Origin: an uncultured Solirubrobacterales bacterium
Lineage (GTDB): Bacteria; Actinomycetota; Thermoleophilia; Solirubrobacterales; 70-9
Assembly: GCA_903891285.1 (NCBI GenBank)
Contig: CAITDZ010000004.1
Span: 1 to 33,546, forward strand
Reading direction: 5' to 3'
Length of the DNA stretch: 33,546 nucleotides
Below are positions 10,612-20,143 of the stretch, piece after piece. The notes under the pieces were generated by a model. It saw only the letters and a list, made by a program, of their open reading frames with translations. It was not told the DNA's origin and made no database searches. Positions within the stretch are counted from its first letter, which is position 1, and each line of letters starts with the position of its first letter. The position numbers and the translations under genes were made by a program.

Positions 10612-11082
10612 ATGGACGTTCTAGTGCTGATCGACAAGCTGGACGATCTCGTCCACAACGCTCGTCCCGTGCCCCTGACCGACCAGGTGAGGGTCGACCG
10701 GGAAGAGATCTACGACCTGCTCGACCAGATGCGGGCAACCATTCCTGAGGAGATAAAGCAGGCGCGTTGGATCGTCAAGGAGCGGCAGGAGATGCTCGAG
10801 GAGGCGAAGCGCGAAGCCGAGCGGGTCGTCCGTGAGGCTCGTGAGCAACAGGCTCGGCTCGTCTCCGACGAGGAGGTAACGAAGCAGGCCGAAAGGGCTG
10901 CCGACGAGATAGTCGAAGACGCGAGGGCTCGTGAGCGGGAGATCCGGCTCGGCGCCGAGGACTATGCCGACGACATCCTCAGCACCCTCGAGGTCAACCT
11001 CGAGAAGTTCACTGCCGCTGTCAGGAGGGGCCGCGACCGGCTTGCCGGGCGCGACGAAGAGCCCCTCGACGAGTCCGAGTAA
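10612..11082 (+). CDS. DivIVA/SepIVA-like (ATP synthase b-like) coiled-coil protein
   Basis: MDVLVLIDKLDDLVHNARPVPLTDQVRVDREEIYDLLDQMRATIPEEIKQARWIVKERQEMLEEAKREAERVV...: charged coiled coil; sits next to DUF177/rnc as SepIVA (Rv2927c) does in mycobacteria. Confidence 0.75.
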   Translation: MDVLVLIDKLDDLVHNARPVPLTDQVRVDREEIYDLLDQMRATIPEEIKQARWIVKERQEMLEEAKREAERVVREAREQQARLVSDEEVTKQAERAADEIVEDARAREREIRLGAEDYADDILSTLEVNLEKFTAAVRRGRDRLAGRDEEPLDESE

Positions 11083-11988: not shown

Positions 11989-13068
11989 TTGTCCGGATCC
12001 GAACCGGTCGTCGCCCTGGATGGCTTCGGGGTCGAGGGCGGTTTCGACGTCCTCGCGGAAGGCGCCAGGAGGGCGGCCGCTGATGGGATCTCGATCAGGG
12101 TCTTCGGCCCTTCCGATCCGTTGGGGACTCTGTTGGACGGAGCCCCTGGGGTCGAGCTCGTGGAGACCTCGGACTGGATCGCCAACGAGGATGATCCAGT
12201 TCCGGCGGTCCGCTCGCGGCCGGAGGCATCGGTGGTGCGGGCGGTCAGGGATGTCGCCGAGGGACGGGCAGGCGCGATCACCAGTCTTGGTTCGACCGGG
12301 GCAACCATGGCTGCCGCGACCTTTGGCCTCAAACGGATCAAGGGAGTCAAGCGTCCGGCCCTGGCTGCCCAGGTACCGCTACCCGGAAGGACGGTCCTGT
12401 TCCTCGATGTCGGGGCAAACGTCGAAGTAAGGGCTTTGCACCTCGTGCAGTTCGCCTGCCTCGGAGCCTCCTTCATGTCGGCCGTAAAGGGCATCGAGTC
12501 ACCGGAGGTCGGACTACTCTCCGTCGGTGAGGAGAAGGGAAAGGGACGACCGGAGGAGGTCGAGGCCCATGAGCGCCTCGAAGGGCTCACTGGATCCGGG
12601 GATTCCGGTGGGATCCTCCCCCTCCGGTTCATCGGCAATGTCGAGGGGAATGACATTCCCGATGCCTCCGCCGACGTCATAGTCACCGATGGATTCACCG
12701 GGAACGCCGTCCTGAAGGCGATGGAGGGGGCGGTGAGACGGGTGACCGGGGCGATCAGGGGCGCTGCCCGGTCCAGTCCGCTGGCTGCAGCCGGGGGACT
12801 CCTGCTGAAGCCTGCCCTGGGGGGGCTTCGCGACGACCTCCACCCCGACACCACCGGCGGTGCCCTGATGCTTGGGCTCCGGCACGTTGCTGTGGTGGGC
12901 CATGGCGGTTCGGGGCCGGACGGGGTGGCCAATGCCGTTCGCCTGGCAGCGGCATCCGTCGAGGCGGATGCCCCGGGCAGGACCGCGGAGCTGCTCCACC
13001 AGTTCGGCCTCGACCGGCGGGAGGGCAGTTCCTCCGGGGATGCCGGGCCATCCACTGGTGGCACCTGA
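11989..13068 (+). CDS. plsX: Phosphate acyltransferase PlsX (divergent N-terminal signature)
   Basis: LGSTGATMAAATFGLKRIKGVKRPALAA, LDVGANVEVRALHLVQFA, VGLLSVGEEKGKG, GNVEGNDIPDASADVIVTDGFTGNAVLKAMEG. TTG start adjoining the rpmF stop. Confidence 0.88.
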   Translation: MSGSEPVVALDGFGVEGGFDVLAEGARRAAADGISIRVFGPSDPLGTLLDGAPGVELVETSDWIANEDDPVPAVRSRPEASVVRAVRDVAEGRAGAITSLGSTGATMAAATFGLKRIKGVKRPALAAQVPLPGRTVLFLDVGANVEVRALHLVQFACLGASFMSAVKGIESPEVGLLSVGEEKGKGRPEEVEAHERLEGLTGSGDSGGILPLRFIGNVEGNDIPDASADVIVTDGFTGNAVLKAMEGAVRRVTGAIRGAARSSPLAAAGGLLLKPALGGLRDDLHPDTTGGALMLGLRHVAVVGHGGSGPDGVANAVRLAAASVEADAPGRTAELLHQFGLDRREGSSSGDAGPSTGGT

Positions 13069-13081
13069 TAGGAACCCGGGA

Positions 13082-13327
13082 ATGGAGCGATCTGAAGTCA
13101 TGGAGCTGGTCAGGAGCCACTTGTCCGAGGAACTCGACCTTGACCCCACTCGGATCAACGAGGATTCACGCTTCAGGGAAGACTTCGACGCCGACTCACT
13201 CGACCTGTACGAACTGGTCATGGAGCTCGAAGACCGGTACGGGATCTCTGTTTCCGAGCAGGAGGCTGGGGAGATCGAGACGGTCAAGGACGCAGTCGAC
13301 TTTGTCCTGGTCAAGGCGGATTCGTGA
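13082..13327 (+). CDS. acpP: Acyl carrier protein
   Basis: FREDFDADSLDLYELVMELEDRYGI phosphopantetheine (DSL) site; ATG 13082. Confidence 0.92.
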   Translation: MERSEVMELVRSHLSEELDLDPTRINEDSRFREDFDADSLDLYELVMELEDRYGISVSEQEAGEIETVKDAVDFVLVKADS

Positions 13328-14042
13328 CCGGCGCCGCAGCGCGCCCGACCCCGGTCGGGAGTCGCTGCGGGAGCTGATCGGGCAGCTGCCGGACGGGCGA
13401 AGGGATGAGGCGCTCCGGCATACATCCTGGACCAGCGAGCGACTCGGCTCGTACGAGCGCCTTGCCTTCCTGGGCGACAGTGTCCTCGGGCTCTCGGTAG
13501 CGGAATCGCTCCATCGGGACAACCCGACGATGGATGCCGGTGAGCTGACCAAGATCCTCAATCAGGCGGTGAGTGGCGAGGCCTGCTCTGAGGTGGGGAG
13601 GGAGACCGGGATCCCGGAGATGCTCCGGGAGGCAGAACCCGAAGGGGAGGACGGGGGACATACCTCAGCCGCATCGCTACTGGCGGCCGAACGACCGCTC
13701 CCCGAAGTGACGGAGGCCCTGATCGGGGCCTGCTTCCTCGAGTTCGGTTTCGAGCGGACCTCGGCAGCCGTTTCGAACGCCTTCGCGCCCCGCATCGCGC
13801 GAGTCCGTTCGAATCGGACCGACTTCAAGTCAGCGCTTCAGGAGCTTCTCGCCTCGAAGGGAGAGACGGTGTCCTACGAGGTGGTAGCAACCGAAGGCCC
13901 ACCGCACGACCGAACCTATGAGGTCGCTGCAGTGGTGGGCGGTGACGAGGTCGGTCGGGGCTCGGGCCGGAGCAAGAAATCGGCCGGTCAGGCAGCCGCC
14001 GAGGCAGGGCTCGAATTCCTCGAGGAGAGCGGCCCCTCGTGA
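13302..14042 (+). CDS. rnc: Ribonuclease III (altered metal-binding residues)
   Basis: SYERLAFLGDSVLGLSVAE, AGELTKILNQAVS, EALIGACFLEFGF, C-terminal dsRBD (DFKSALQELLASKG...SKKSAGQAAAEAGLEFL). Probable TTG start 13302 (overlaps acpP); no ATG/GTG in frame downstream that keeps the domain. Confidence 0.88.
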   Translation: MSWSRRIRDRRRSAPDPGRESLRELIGQLPDGRRDEALRHTSWTSERLGSYERLAFLGDSVLGLSVAESLHRDNPTMDAGELTKILNQAVSGEACSEVGRETGIPEMLREAEPEGEDGGHTSAASLLAAERPLPEVTEALIGACFLEFGFERTSAAVSNAFAPRIARVRSNRTDFKSALQELLASKGETVSYEVVATEGPPHDRTYEVAAVVGGDEVGRGSGRSKKSAGQAAAEAGLEFLEESGPS

Positions 14043-14116: not shown

Positions 14117-16453
14117 ATGTTCCTCAAATCGCTGACCATCAATGGCTTCAAGTCCTTCCCCGAGCGGACGGAACTGGAGTTCTCCCCTGGCGTGAGCGTG
14201 ATCATCGGTCCGAACGGCTCAGGGAAGTCGAACATCACCGACGCCGTTCTCTGGGCGCTCGGGGAGCAGAGCCCCGGCGCGGTTCGTGGCGTGACCATGC
14301 AGGACGTGATTTCGGAAGGGGGAGGGTCGATGGGCGCCCGTTCGTCGGCCGAGGTCGAGGTCGTGTTCGAGGCCCCCGACGGCTCCGACTTCTCCGAGAT
14401 CTCGATAAGTCGTCGGCTGACCCGCGACGGGGAGGGGGAGTACAGGCTGAACGGGGCCCGATGCCGCCTCGTCGACGTGATCGAGGTTCTTTCCGACGCC
14501 AACCTCGGCAAGGAGATGCACTCGGTGATCAGCCAGGGTCAGGTCGATTCGATCGTCGGCTCGAAGCCCGCACAGCGGCGGCTCCTGATCGAGGAAGCTG
14601 CGGGACTCGGAAAGTTCAGGCGCAGGCGTCGTCGGTCCGAGCTGAAGCTGAAGGCGACCCGGGAGAACCTCTCCCGGGCACTCGACGTCGAACGCGAGGC
14701 CAAGCGGGCGCTCAGGCCCCTCAAGGAACAGGCCAATGCCGCCGAGATCGGGGCCAAGATCGAGCGGGAAGAGCTCGGCCTCAAGGCGAGGATCATCGCC
14801 GAGGAGATCAGGTTCGGCCAGGATCGCCTCGAGGCCGCGCGGGGTCTCGCCGAGGGAGCCCGCGGTCGTCGATCCAAGCTCGAGGAGAAGCTCGGCGAGG
14901 TATCGAAGCGGAGGACGGCGGCCGAGGAGCGTTTCGCGGACCGCGACCGGCTGAGGACGGAGCTCTGGGAGACGCTCAACGATCTGAGGGGAGCAAGGGA
15001 GCAGGTCCACTTGGCCACCGTCTCGATCTCGGAGCGTGGCCGCTCGCTCGAACCGGGAATCGAACGGCTTCGGCGGGAGCTCGAGCCCCTTTCCCTCGAC
15101 CTCGAGGGAACGGCCGGGGAGCCCGACCGGGCCCGGCGTCTGGTCGATGAGCTCGGTTCAGTCGAGCTCGGCCTCGGAAGGGCCAGTCGCGGCCTCGAGC
15201 GGGCCGGTTCGGAGGGTTCCGAGACGGACCGACTGGCGGGGCTGGCGGAGGTTCATGAAGGGACCCGGGAAGCCCAGGACCACGCTCGTCGGGCGGAGAG
15301 CCTCCTGGGGGAGCGCCATCGGGAGAGGCTGGGTGAACGGCTCGGACGGGCGGAGTCGCTCCAGGGGGCGATTTCCGGCCTTGCCGAAGCCGCGACCGGG
15401 ACGGCCGAAGCCCTCGCTTCGAGGATCGAAGCTGCCGAGCGGACTGCGGTCGGGAGCGACTCGGAAGAGGCCGACGAGATAGCGGCCGAGCTGAGGAAGT
15501 GTTCCGACGAGGAGGTCGAGATCCAGGCCGATCTTCGCAAGGTTGCCGAGGAGGTGACCGAAGCCGAGGTCGAGGCTGCCCAGCTCGAGAACCGGAGGGC
15601 AGAGCGGGTTGCCGAGATCGAGCGAATCGAATCCCGGCTCGGCGAGCCCCTCGAGGAGGCTGGGGAGCCGATGGACGACGAGGAGCGCGAGACGATCGAG
15701 CGCAGGCTCGAGGCGCTGGCCCGCAGGCGTGAGCGGATCGGTCCGGTCAATCCCCTCGCCCAGCGTGAATACGAGGAGGCCCAGGAGCACCACGCCGGGC
15801 TGGTCGAGCAGCGAGAGGATTCCGAGCGGGCGCTTCGCGAACTGGAAGACATCATCCGAGACATCGATACGGAGATGTCCCGCTCCTTCGAGCAGACCTT
15901 CGATGCCGCGGCTGCGAACTTCGAACAGGTGATCGCACACCTCTTTCCCGGTGGCTCGGGCAAGCTGAGGAAAGTCGAGCTCGAGGGGCCGGTCGATCCG
16001 GAGGCGGAAGCTGCCGATCCCGAGGGCGAACCGGATGTAGACGATGTACCCGCACCCGGCGAGCCCAAGTTCGGGGTCGAGCTCGAGGTCACCCCGAAAG
16101 GCAAGAAGACCCGCCAGATGCGTCTGCTCTCTGGTGGCGAGAAGGCACTCACCGCGCTCGGCTTCGTCTTCGCCGTCTTCCTCGCCCGCCCATGCCCCTT
16201 CTACATCCTCGACGAGGTCGAGGCCGCCCTCGATGACGCCAACATCGCCAGGTTCCTCGAACTGGTCGGGGAGTTCTCCACCCGAACCCAGTTCATCATC
16301 GTCACCCACCAGAAACTGACTATGGACGCGGCCGACGTCCTCTACGGCGCGAGCATGGGTGGCGACGGAATCACCAAGGTCGTCTCCCGCCGTCTTCCTC
16401 CTGCCCGGGACGAGGAGTCCGGGGTCGAAGAGCGGCTCGACCGCGCGGCCTGA
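14117..16453 (+). CDS. smc: SMC-family ATPase, short and apparently hingeless (778 aa)
   Basis: MFLKSLTINGFKSF...GPNGSGKSNITDAVLWALGEQSP, VISQGQVDSIVGSKPAQRRLLIEEAAGLGKFR, RIGPVNPLAQREYEE, LLSGGEKALTALGFVFAVF, FYILDEVEAALDDANIARF. Confidence 0.93.
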   Translation: MFLKSLTINGFKSFPERTELEFSPGVSVIIGPNGSGKSNITDAVLWALGEQSPGAVRGVTMQDVISEGGGSMGARSSAEVEVVFEAPDGSDFSEISISRRLTRDGEGEYRLNGARCRLVDVIEVLSDANLGKEMHSVISQGQVDSIVGSKPAQRRLLIEEAAGLGKFRRRRRRSELKLKATRENLSRALDVEREAKRALRPLKEQANAAEIGAKIEREELGLKARIIAEEIRFGQDRLEAARGLAEGARGRRSKLEEKLGEVSKRRTAAEERFADRDRLRTELWETLNDLRGAREQVHLATVSISERGRSLEPGIERLRRELEPLSLDLEGTAGEPDRARRLVDELGSVELGLGRASRGLERAGSEGSETDRLAGLAEVHEGTREAQDHARRAESLLGERHRERLGERLGRAESLQGAISGLAEAATGTAEALASRIEAAERTAVGSDSEEADEIAAELRKCSDEEVEIQADLRKVAEEVTEAEVEAAQLENRRAERVAEIERIESRLGEPLEEAGEPMDDEERETIERRLEALARRRERIGPVNPLAQREYEEAQEHHAGLVEQREDSERALRELEDIIRDIDTEMSRSFEQTFDAAAANFEQVIAHLFPGGSGKLRKVELEGPVDPEAEAADPEGEPDVDDVPAPGEPKFGVELEVTPKGKKTRQMRLLSGGEKALTALGFVFAVFLARPCPFYILDEVEAALDDANIARFLELVGEFSTRTQFIIVTHQKLTMDAADVLYGASMGGDGITKVVSRRLPPARDEESGVEERLDRAA

Positions 16454-16462
16454 GGGGCCGGG

Positions 16463-17470
16463 ATGGCCACGACCTGGGCCGACGTCTTCGAGACGGGGAG
16501 GCCGCCCAGCGCCCTTTCAGAGGGCGAGGGAACCGAGTTGGAACCAGCTCGCAAGGGTGCCTTCGCCCGACTGAGGGAGTCCCTCTCCCGTAGTCGTCGA
16601 GTCCTCGCATCGGAGATCGGCGCGGGCCTGTTCGAGCGGATCGACGCGTCGACCTGGGAGCGCCTGGAGGAGGCCCTGGTAATGGCTGACGTCGGAGTTA
16701 CCGTCACCGCCTCGGTGGTCGCCGACCTCGAACGCGAGGTCGAAGCAGGGGAGGTGGCGGCGACACCCGATGCCGTCAGGGAGCGTCTCGTCGAGCTTCT
16801 CGCGGCCGTCGCCTCGATACCCGTCGGCCCAATCGCCCTCGATGGCGACCCGTCGGTGATCCTCCTGACCGGTGTCAACGGCAGCGGCAAGACGACTTCG
16901 GCCGGCAAACTTGCCTGGCGCTTGAGGGATGAGTTCGGCCTTTCCGTCCTGCTCGGGGCGGCCGATACCTACCGGGCGGCTGCCGGAGAGCAGCTCGAAG
17001 CCTGGGCCGATCGGGCCGGAGCGGGACTCGTCGCATCCCAGCAGGGTGCCGATCCCGGGTCGGTGGCGTTCGATGCGATTGCGGCTGGCAGGGCAAGGGG
17101 CGCCGACGTGGTGATCATCGACACGGCAGGCCGGCTCCAGACCGAGAAGAGCCTGATGGATGAGCTGGCAAAGGTGAGGCGGGTGGTCGAGCGCGAGGCG
17201 CCTGGAGCCCCCCACGGAGCATTTATCTCGATCGACGCGACCACCGGCCAGAACGGCCTCCGCCAGGCAACGGCATTCTCGGAAGCGGTCCCGCTCGATG
17301 GGGTGGTCCTGACCAAGCTGGACGGTTCGGCCAAGGGCGGGATAGCGCTCGCGATCACGTCCGAACTCGGCATCCCCGTCCGGATGGTCGGGGTGGGCGA
17401 GGGGATCGAGGACCTCGCCCCGTTCGATCCCGGGGAATTCGCCCGGGCACTTCTCGATCCGGACGAGTAG
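16463..17470 (+). CDS. ftsY: Signal recognition particle receptor FtsY
   Basis: LLTGVNGSGKTTSAGKLA, GAADTYRAAAGEQL, IIDTAGRLQTEKSLMDEL, VVLTKLDGSAKGG. Confidence 0.95.
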   Translation: MATTWADVFETGRPPSALSEGEGTELEPARKGAFARLRESLSRSRRVLASEIGAGLFERIDASTWERLEEALVMADVGVTVTASVVADLEREVEAGEVAATPDAVRERLVELLAAVASIPVGPIALDGDPSVILLTGVNGSGKTTSAGKLAWRLRDEFGLSVLLGAADTYRAAAGEQLEAWADRAGAGLVASQQGADPGSVAFDAIAAGRARGADVVIIDTAGRLQTEKSLMDELAKVRRVVEREAPGAPHGAFISIDATTGQNGLRQATAFSEAVPLDGVVLTKLDGSAKGGIALAITSELGIPVRMVGVGEGIEDLAPFDPGEFARALLDPDE

Positions 17471-17518: not shown

Positions 17519-18883
17519 ATGTTCGACCAGCTTTCGGAACGCCTTCGCACCGCGCTCGACCCGCTCGGCAAGAAGGGCCGGATCACCGACGAAGACGTCG
17601 ATCGGGCGATGCGTGAGGTACGCCTCGCCCTGCTCGAGGCGGACGTAAATTTCAAGGTGGTCAAGGAATTCACCGAGGGAGTCAGGCAGCGCTGTCTCGA
17701 GACCGAGGTGACTTCGAGCGTCGATCCGGGCCAGCAGGTCGTCAAGGTCGTAAACGATGAGCTGGCCGCCCTCATGGGCGGGACCGGTCGCGAACTGGCG
17801 ATGGCGGACGAGGGCCCTACCGTCATCCTTCTGGCGGGTCTCCAGGGATCGGGCAAGACGACCACCGCGGCCAAACTGGCATCGATGCTGGTCGGGGAGG
17901 ACCTCGAGGTGGGAGTTGCCGCCTGTGACCTGCACCGCCCGGCAGCGATCGAGCAGCTGGCGAACGTCGGGGGACGGGCGGGCGCGACCGTGATCACCAG
18001 GCCCGGAGCGTCCGATCCGGTTGTCGTGGCGGCCGAGGCACGGCAGGAGGCAGTCGACTCCGGACTCGACGTCCTGATCGTGGACACCGCTGGGAGGCTC
18101 GATGTCGATGAGGAGCTGATGGAGGAGCTCACGGCGATCCGCAAGGCCGTCCGTCCCCATGACGTGCTGCTCGTGGTCGACGCGATGACCGGCCAGGCTG
18201 CGGTGGAGGTTGCCCAGGCCTTCTCCGACTCGGTTGGGGTGGACGGGGTGGTCCTGACCAAGCTCGACGGCGATGCCAGGGGCGGTGCGGCACTTTCGGT
18301 CCGGGCCGTCACCGGGAGTCCCATCCTCTTCGCCTCGACCGGGGAGGGCCTCGAAGCCTTCGATCGCTTCCACCCCGACCGGATGGCCGGGCGGATCCTC
18401 GGAATGGGGGACATCCTCAGCCTGGTCGAGAAGGCTGAACGGGAGGTCGACCGTGACCAGGCGGAGGAACTCCAACGGAAGATGGCCTCCGACGGCCTCA
18501 CCCTCGAGGATTTCCTCACCCAGATGAGACAGGTCCGGAAGATGGGTCCGCTCGGCTCCCTGCTCGGGATGATGCCCGGACTCGGCCAGATGAAGCAGCT
18601 CAAGGAGGCCGACCTCGACGAGCGGGAGCTCGACCGGGTCGAGGCGATCATCCTCTCGATGACCCCTGAGGAGAGGCTCAACCCGGATCTCGTGAAGGGT
18701 TCCCGTCGGCGCCGGATCGCCACTGGATCGGGGACTTCGATCCAGCAGGTCAACAACCTGGTCAAGCAGTTCGGCCAGATGAGGCGGCTGATGAAGCAGG
18801 TCGCCTCGGGGGGGATGCCCGACCCCGAAGCTCTCGCAAAGGCGGTCGGCAAGCCGGCCCGCCCCCGCGTGCGGCGGCGCTGA
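17519..18883 (+). CDS. ffh: Signal recognition particle protein Ffh
   Basis: LLAGLQGSGKTTTAAKLA, VDTAGRLDVDEELMEEL, VLTKLDGDARGGAALS, Met-rich M domain (MGPLGSLLGMMPGLGQMKQL). Confidence 0.96.
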   Translation: MFDQLSERLRTALDPLGKKGRITDEDVDRAMREVRLALLEADVNFKVVKEFTEGVRQRCLETEVTSSVDPGQQVVKVVNDELAALMGGTGRELAMADEGPTVILLAGLQGSGKTTTAAKLASMLVGEDLEVGVAACDLHRPAAIEQLANVGGRAGATVITRPGASDPVVVAAEARQEAVDSGLDVLIVDTAGRLDVDEELMEELTAIRKAVRPHDVLLVVDAMTGQAAVEVAQAFSDSVGVDGVVLTKLDGDARGGAALSVRAVTGSPILFASTGEGLEAFDRFHPDRMAGRILGMGDILSLVEKAEREVDRDQAEELQRKMASDGLTLEDFLTQMRQVRKMGPLGSLLGMMPGLGQMKQLKEADLDERELDRVEAIILSMTPEERLNPDLVKGSRRRRIATGSGTSIQQVNNLVKQFGQMRRLMKQVASGGMPDPEALAKAVGKPARPRVRRR

Positions 18884-18905: not shown

Positions 18906-19157
18906 ATGGTCCGGATAAGACTCAAGCGCGTGGGTTCGAAGAAGAACCCGATCTGGCGGATAGTCGTCGCCGATCGCCGTTCCCCCAGGGACGGGCGGAA
19001 CATCGAGACGATCGGCCAGTACAACGCCCAGACCGATCCGTCGACGATCGAGGTCGACGAAGATCGCGCCCGATACTGGCTCGAGAAGGGCGCGCGGCCG
19101 ACCCGGCGGGTCGCGGGGCTCTTCCGGATCAAGGGAATCGACGCCCAGGGGAGCTGA
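18906..19157 (+). CDS. rpsP: Ribosomal protein bS16
   Basis: MVRIRLKRVGSKKNPIWRIVVADRRSPRDGRNIETIGQYN. Confidence 0.96.
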   Translation: MVRIRLKRVGSKKNPIWRIVVADRRSPRDGRNIETIGQYNAQTDPSTIEVDEDRARYWLEKGARPTRRVAGLFRIKGIDAQGS

Positions 19158-19164
19158 GGGACCT

Positions 19165-19392
19165 GTGCAGGAGATGCTCCTGTTCATGGTGCGCTCGCTG
19201 GTGGACGACCGGGAGGCCGTCGAGGTCGACGAGATCGAGGAGGACGACGACCTGGTCTACGAAGTCACGGTGGCCGAGGACGACCTCGGACGGGTGATCG
19301 GTCGGGGTGGCCGGGTAGCCAAGGCGTTGAGGACGGTCGCGAGGGCGGCCGCCCAAGATGACCGGCGCGTCCTGGTCGACATCCTCGACTAG
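19165..19392 (+). CDS. khpA: KH-domain RNA-binding protein KhpA
   Basis: KH GxxG segment DDLGRVIGRGGRVAKALRTVARAAA; follows rpsP. GTG start. Confidence 0.92.
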   Translation: MQEMLLFMVRSLVDDREAVEVDEIEEDDDLVYEVTVAEDDLGRVIGRGGRVAKALRTVARAAAQDDRRVLVDILD

Positions 19393-19408
19393 GAGGGAGG
19401 GCCGCCCG

Positions 19409-20143
19409 GTGCGGTTCGACATCTTCACGCTTTTTCCCGATGCCTTCGAGTGGCTGCTCGGCCAGCGGAGCTTCCGGAAGTCCGGCGAAGAGGGGGCCGA
19501 GTTCACCCTCCGGGACTACCGGACGTGGACCCCCCTGAAGGGCGGGCGGGTCGACGACTCCCCCTACGGAGGGGGCTCCGGAATGGTGATCCGGGTCGAT
19601 GTCGTCGACGCAGCCCTCCGGGCGGTCTACGGCGAGGGTTCCCGGCCCCGAACCATCCTGCTCAGCCCGGTGGGTCGTCAGCTCGACGAGGACCTCGTCA
19701 CGGAGCTCGCGGCCGAACCCGCACTCGCCCTCCTCTGTGGCAGGTACGAGGGCTTCGACCAGCGGGTGCACGACCACCTGGCCGATGACGAGGTCTCGAT
19801 CGGGCCCTACGTCCTCGCGGGGGGTGAACTGCCGGCGATGGTCCTTGCCGATGCTGTGGTCCGACGTCTACCGGGAGCGCTGGGGGACCCCGGCAGTTCG
19901 GTCGAGGAGTCCTTCTCCGAAGCGCTCGACGGGCAGCCGGAGTACCCCCACTACACCCGTCCCCCCGAGTACGAGGGCTGGGCGGTTCCCGAGGTCCTGC
20001 TTTCCGGGGACCACGCATCGGTCGAGAGGTGGCGCAGGGAGCAGAGTGCCGTTCGTGCTGCGGGCGCCGGCCACGAGCGGTCGGGCGACTCGGTAGCATC
20101 CCCGGGCCGCTCCCCGCGGGACGACGACCCAGGGATCGGCTGA
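19409..20143 (+). CDS. trmD: tRNA (guanine37-N1)-methyltransferase TrmD
   Basis: [71 protein letters not shown]-like ggagggagg upstream; GTG 19409. Confidence 0.95.

Follow-up and report, generated by a model that had tools for sequence, protein, structure and literature searches.

The hinge-less smc gene

We examined a 33,546-nucleotide stretch of DNA (the window) from an uncultured Solirubrobacterales bacterium (GenBank assembly GCA_903891285.1, contig CAITDZ010000004.1), in which an smc gene encodes an SMC ATPase that has an intact head and no hinge. The hinge is regarded as a defining and normally essential part of SMC rings. The gene and the parts of its product are:

14117..16453, + strand: smc, hinge-less SMC ATPase of 778 residues (open reading frame; TIGR02168 over its cut-off; PF06470 absent; kept across 8 genera)
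14117..14605, + strand: N-terminal half of the ATPase head, residues 1–163, with Walker A at 14207–14233 (translation, AlphaFold, SMC_N match)
14606..15208, + strand: N-side arm, residues 164–364, with helices 164–233, 235–326 and 335–364 and a break at 327–334 (AlphaFold secondary structure)
15209..15220, + strand: tip turn, residues 365–368, where relatives have hinge-proximal coil and hinge (AlphaFold, window SMC and hinged relative)
15221..15943, + strand: C-side arm, residues 369–609, with GPVNPLA at 15740–15760 (AlphaFold, translation)
15278..15331, + strand: conserved tip patch, residues 388–405, DHARRAESLLGERHRERL region (alignment of 27 hinge-less relatives)
15944..16402, + strand: C-terminal half of the ATPase head, with the signature at 16127–16141 and Walker B at 16199–16216 (translation, SMC_N match)

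The gene starts with ATG and contains no internal stops. In its translation Walker A (GPNGSGKSN) occupies residues 31–39, the signature (LSGGE) residues 671–675 and Walker B (FYILDE) residues 695–700, and GPVNPLA starts at residue 542. These positions agree with the original prediction, made from the letters of the DNA, of intact head motifs in one uninterrupted frame, with the N-head ending near residue 165 and GPVNPLA near 540. The Pfam scan matched SMC_N at 207.6 bits, and the NCBIfam model SMC_prok_B (TIGR02168) scored 603.3 bits, above its cut-off of 567.4. The Rad50 and RecN family models stayed far under their cut-offs (87 bits against 700 and 24 bits against 418, respectively). No MukB/MksB model appeared among the 25 NCBIfam matches listed; no dedicated operon or genome search for one was made. 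Among PDB folds, the best matches were to the Smc head with its coil and to Smc heads in complex with ScpA.

Absence of the hinge and of the distal arms

The Pfam hinge domain (PF06470) was matched neither in the window SMC nor anywhere in its genome (the whole 1.75-Mb bin). A custom profile of the hinge, made from 22 actinobacterial SMCs that have one, gave at least 88 bits with six hinged test proteins, all of which also belong to its training set, and at most 4.4 bits with every hinge-less protein.

We compared AlphaFold models of the window SMC (27-row alignment, pLDDT 76, pTM 0.50) and of a hinged relative, G024 (pLDDT 72); because the confidence is modest, only secondary structure was used. 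Among the relatives, those with a name are Solirubrobacterales metagenome-assembled genomes. In the window SMC the three N-side helices are followed by the four-residue turn 365–368 and by helices 369–445 and 449–508. The hinged protein has helices 168–328, 337–353 and 365–440, a strand-containing hinge at 441–577, and then helices 578–653, 658–730 and 738–794. This comparison indicates that the hinge and the hinge-proximal coil on both sides have been lost (about residues 365–653 of the hinged protein). The hinged protein also has the coil breaks that bound the lost segment. In the profile alignment the gap is scattered, and the deletion junction is located only approximately; the segment LLGERHRERL may resemble a hinge motif (ALGERLRA) or a C-arm block (RAQIEAELAAER).

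The absence of a hinge, as first noticed in the sequence, was thus borne out by Pfam, by the custom profile and by the model, in which coil lies on either side of a turn; the same three lines of evidence rule out a cryptic hinge. The Gly/Pro breaks placed at residues ~310–370 do lie within the coil, as loops 327–334 and 365–368. The protein contains three Cys residues (116, 462 and 693), one of them in the arms, so the single Cys reported at first was a miscount. The accompanying claim that there is no zinc hook stood: CxxC was found in none of the 24 hinge-less relatives, and a zinc hook can be set aside.

The span from M1 to GPVNP measures 541 residues in the window SMC, 540–555 in the 24 hinge-less relatives and 826–851 in 15 of the 16 hinged ones (771 in the remaining one). 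This near-constant length argues against decay. The net loss relative to hinged relatives is about 286 residues, and the arms measure ~200 residues per side against ~272 in the hinged model. The distal arms are therefore gone, as had been proposed; the length standard used for that proposal (1150–1200 residues) was too high for this order, whose hinged SMCs have about 1050–1100 residues in most members compared.

Distribution among relatives

The order-level sample comprised 61 related genomes, and a phylum-level sample was used for wider comparison. The bin that contains the window is 87% complete and comprises 242 contigs. In the genus to which it belongs, 17 of 18 genomes gave an smc match, two of these genes being known as overlapping contig-edge fragments. 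The full-length hinge-less architecture occurs also in seven further genera of the family (g2, g4, g5, g7, g9, g11 and g12), and its carriers include a one-contig genome and a 5-contig genome. Across the 8 genera the full-length matches are single uninterrupted open reading frames of 52–72% identity, and the head motifs are invariant in the alignment of 27.

PF06470 is absent from every one of the 18 congeneric genomes, of which eight are at least 90% complete, and from the other hinge-less genera, which also rules out a hinge supplied by a separate gene in the genus. Within the family, the three sister genera g3, g8 and g10 have a hinged SMC of about 1080 residues. The SMC is likewise hinged in most genomes of the order's other families; in these and in g3, g8 and g10 the open frames mostly span about 1050–1300 residues. 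Neither of two possibilities raised with the original prediction was found: there is no hinge-bearing SMC elsewhere in the genome or the genus by PF06470, and the short form is no collapse unique to this contig but is shared with 16 further genomes of the genus and with 7 further genera.

Genomic context and partner genes

The smc gene lies in the order plsX-rnc-smc-ftsY-ffh, with trmD nearby, as had been read from the sequence for rnc, smc, ftsY and ffh:

11989..13068, + strand: plsX (TIGR00182, 229 bits, slightly under cut-off)
13140..14042, + strand: rnc, RNase III, true start probably further in (TIGR02191, 160 bits, slightly under cut-off, match from residue 89)
16463..17470, + strand: ftsY (TIGR00064 above cut-off)
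17519..18883, + strand: ffh (TIGR00959 above cut-off)

With these neighbors it is the standard chromosomal smc locus. Downstream, rpsP (18906–19157), a KH-like open reading frame (19165–19392) and trmD (19358–20143) follow with no rimM between them (18906–19358); rimM sits at the rpsP-trmD position in many bacteria. Upstream, positions 10612–11082 encode a coil-rich 156-residue protein between coaD and a DUF177-like open reading frame, with no NCBIfam match at 1e-8.

ScpA and ScpB are encoded in all 43 good-quality genomes, hinged and hinge-less alike, and ParB in 34 of 37, the window's genome included. The window's genome carries scpA and scpB side by side, both full-length. On the strength of its locus, its single copy and the retained ScpA, ScpB and ParB genes, the window SMC is no paralogue but the chromosomal SMC, as the original prediction had held to be probable.

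Repeated loss of the hinge

In the phylum-level sample the SMCs of families f12, f30 and f37 are short (736–916 residues) and hinge-less, while those of f24, f10 and f13 are hinged; ScpA was found in all f12, f30 and f37 genomes searched bar one f30 bin. The f37 genome G222 (L128:2174-4921) encodes a 916-residue SMC in which no hinge is detectable and which is sister to the hinged 1181-residue SMC of f13 (support 92–94), possibly a further independent hinge loss. In a separate case, the f3 genome G084 (L132:3-2366) encodes a 788-residue hinge-less SMC with a different tip, the f3 relatives that could be judged keeping long frames. This protein, known from a single bin and from a gene that terminates near a contig edge, is apparently independent of the window type.

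Approximately unbiased (AU) tests rejected a single origin of all tested hinge-less SMCs (p = 5e-42) and a clade of f1 with G084 (p = 3e-6); a clade of f12, f30 and f37 was borderline (p = 0.034). From the rejections the hinge was lost at least three times in Actinomycetota, or at least twice without the single G084 bin. Judged by these sequence trees, the hinge-less origin in Solirubrobacterales is independent of the f12/f30 lineage. As a guess from their small AT-rich genomes, f12/f30 may correspond to a published marine cluster, a 'hinge-less' SMC cluster of oceanic Actinobacteria that a 2025 study drew from ocean gene catalogues, where it forms a single divergent clade (PMC12153180). The type is thus not wholly new. 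According to that study, the marine proteins resemble ours in having a head and antiparallel coil and in lacking a hinge, a zinc hook and an accompanying hinged SMC; the present case differs in belonging to Solirubrobacterales, in the ScpAB and ParB seen in the genomes, and in its hinged sister genera.

A conserved patch at the tip

Beside the tip turn, the patch RRAESLLGER (residues 391–400; pattern RRxExLLGxR) averages 3.92 bits, compared with 3.80 for the N-head and 3.01 for the arms. R392, E394, L396, L397, G398 and L405 are invariant among the 27 aligned hinge-less relatives. The matching helix of hinged relatives (658–730) averages 2.61 bits. Hinged SMCs of the order carry a conserved block, RAQIEAELAAER (residues 661–680 of L044:3029-6286), immediately on the head side of the C-side coil break; the block may be an elbow element from which the tip patch of hinge-less SMCs descends.

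A proposed core-only Smc-ScpAB

By descent the window protein is a bacterial Smc, and by architecture it lacks the hinge: it is a hinge-less variant of Smc. It shares with the B. subtilis type the head motifs, the ScpA, ScpB and ParB genes, the chromosomal locus and the family model, and differs from it in the missing hinge, the ~286 residues fewer than in hinged relatives and the shorter arms. We propose, at slightly better than even odds (about 0.55), that this orthologue of hinged Smc works as a core-only Smc-ScpAB with its tip closed by the conserved patch; residues 388–405, singled out by their conservation, are the best candidate for that closure and give a specific form to the alternative dimer interface that the original prediction had inferred. 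An in-frame deletion in the ancestor of these Solirubrobacterales genera would have excised a peripheral module between two natural coil breaks. The remaining motor core would consist of a two-part ABC head, a ScpA-binding neck and cap, and an arm of ~200 residues per side that folds back. ParB would load the complex at parS, ScpA-ScpB would bridge the heads of two protomers, and ATP-driven head engagement and release would move DNA. The far end would probably be closed by tip-tip contact through the patch (~388–405), beside the coil break 327–334. We infer that the protein assembles with ScpAB, closes tip to tip and extrudes DNA.

One precedent is engineered. ecJetC of Wadjet without residues 348–686 (elbow to hinge, with nine residues instead) cleaves plasmid DNA if its elbow is disulphide-linked, and the cleavage was read as loop extrusion with obstacle bypass lost (PMC12647877). 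The segment removed there, with a short linker in its place, is comparable to the loss of 365–653 here; ecJetC is a laboratory plasmid-defence SMC with a nuclease and an engineered disulphide, whereas the window type is natural, chromosomal and fixed in its clade. By this precedent tip closure would be needed, with the patch the best candidate to provide it, and because there is no hinge gate, hinge-mediated obstacle bypass should be lacking. B. subtilis with a Rad50 zinc hook replacing the Smc hinge grows normally on rich medium (PMC5344682).

Several observations weigh against this proposal. The engineered Wadjet core is inactive once the elbow cross-link is lost (PMC12647877), and the core-only model would therefore fail without a real tip contact. 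The argument for tip closure is one from conservation, and the role of the patch may be confined to bracing the coil break within one protomer. Moreover, block 661–680 of hinged relatives, at the matching C-side break, is itself moderately conserved (3.1–3.4 bits), which means that the patch is not necessarily a new interface. The Smc tree, finally, places hinged genera inside hinge-less ones, weakly (89/76), which splits the f1 hinge-less proteins into two groups and hints at two losses. We prefer one loss in f1, because a single hinge-less clade was not rejected (AU p = 0.198) and both groups have a common tip motif that is not seen in hinged relatives.

The strongest competing reading is an open clamp bridged by the kleisin, in which the chromosomal Smc acts with ScpAB while its distal ends stay unjoined, the protomers being held by ScpA and ATP-engaged heads so as to clamp or bridge DNA with no closed ring. 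Neither Pfam nor AlphaFold shows the tip to carry a known dimerisation domain, ScpA is retained, and in vitro ATP-engaged heads bring together Smc5 and Smc6 head-arm pieces that lack the hinge (PMC8327961). Against this stand a distal patch conserved as strongly as the head and a near-fixed arm length (540–555), both of which imply a function at the tip, and the closed ring that the engineered Wadjet core requires (PMC12647877). We regard the open clamp as possible but rather unlikely.

A repair ATPase of the RecN or SbcC/Rad50 type that has abandoned chromosome organisation is improbable. The ABC head, short antiparallel coil and missing hinge give a superficial likeness to these proteins, but the SMC_prok_B score lies above its cut-off and the Rad50 and RecN scores far below theirs, the CxxC hook is absent, the best folds are Smc heads, and the genomes contain no hinged SMC for the chromosomal task, yet scpAB and parB persist. 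Incompleteness of the window's genome would allow for a paralogue beside a normal SMC missing from the bin, a reading made very improbable, and ruled out within the reach of the searches made, by the canonical rnc-smc-ftsY-ffh position and by the lack of PF06470 in all 18 congeneric genomes and in the other hinge-less genera, MukB/MksB-type condensins not having been searched for. Assembly collapse, truncation or a decaying gene, for which a fragmented and incomplete bin might speak, is excluded for practical purposes by the same architecture with invariant head motifs in relatives that include the one-contig and 5-contig genomes.

Implications for SMC evolution

With the hinge-less Smc, evolution appears to have arrived by itself at the kind of minimal DNA-looping motor that laboratory engineering produced only recently. 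More tentatively, and at less than even odds, the at least three hinge losses in Actinomycetota may have been viable because Smc-ScpAB can run core-only, with its ring closed by residues ~388–405 at the excision site, and extrude DNA with no hinge gate. The window protein is a natural, evolutionarily tuned counterpart of the 2025 engineered core-only SMC, and its small size (778 residues) makes it convenient for structural and single-molecule work. Close hinged and hinge-less genera that both have ScpAB and ParB make the function of the hinge testable by comparison, and losses that recurred independently show that evolution can dispense with the peripheral module.
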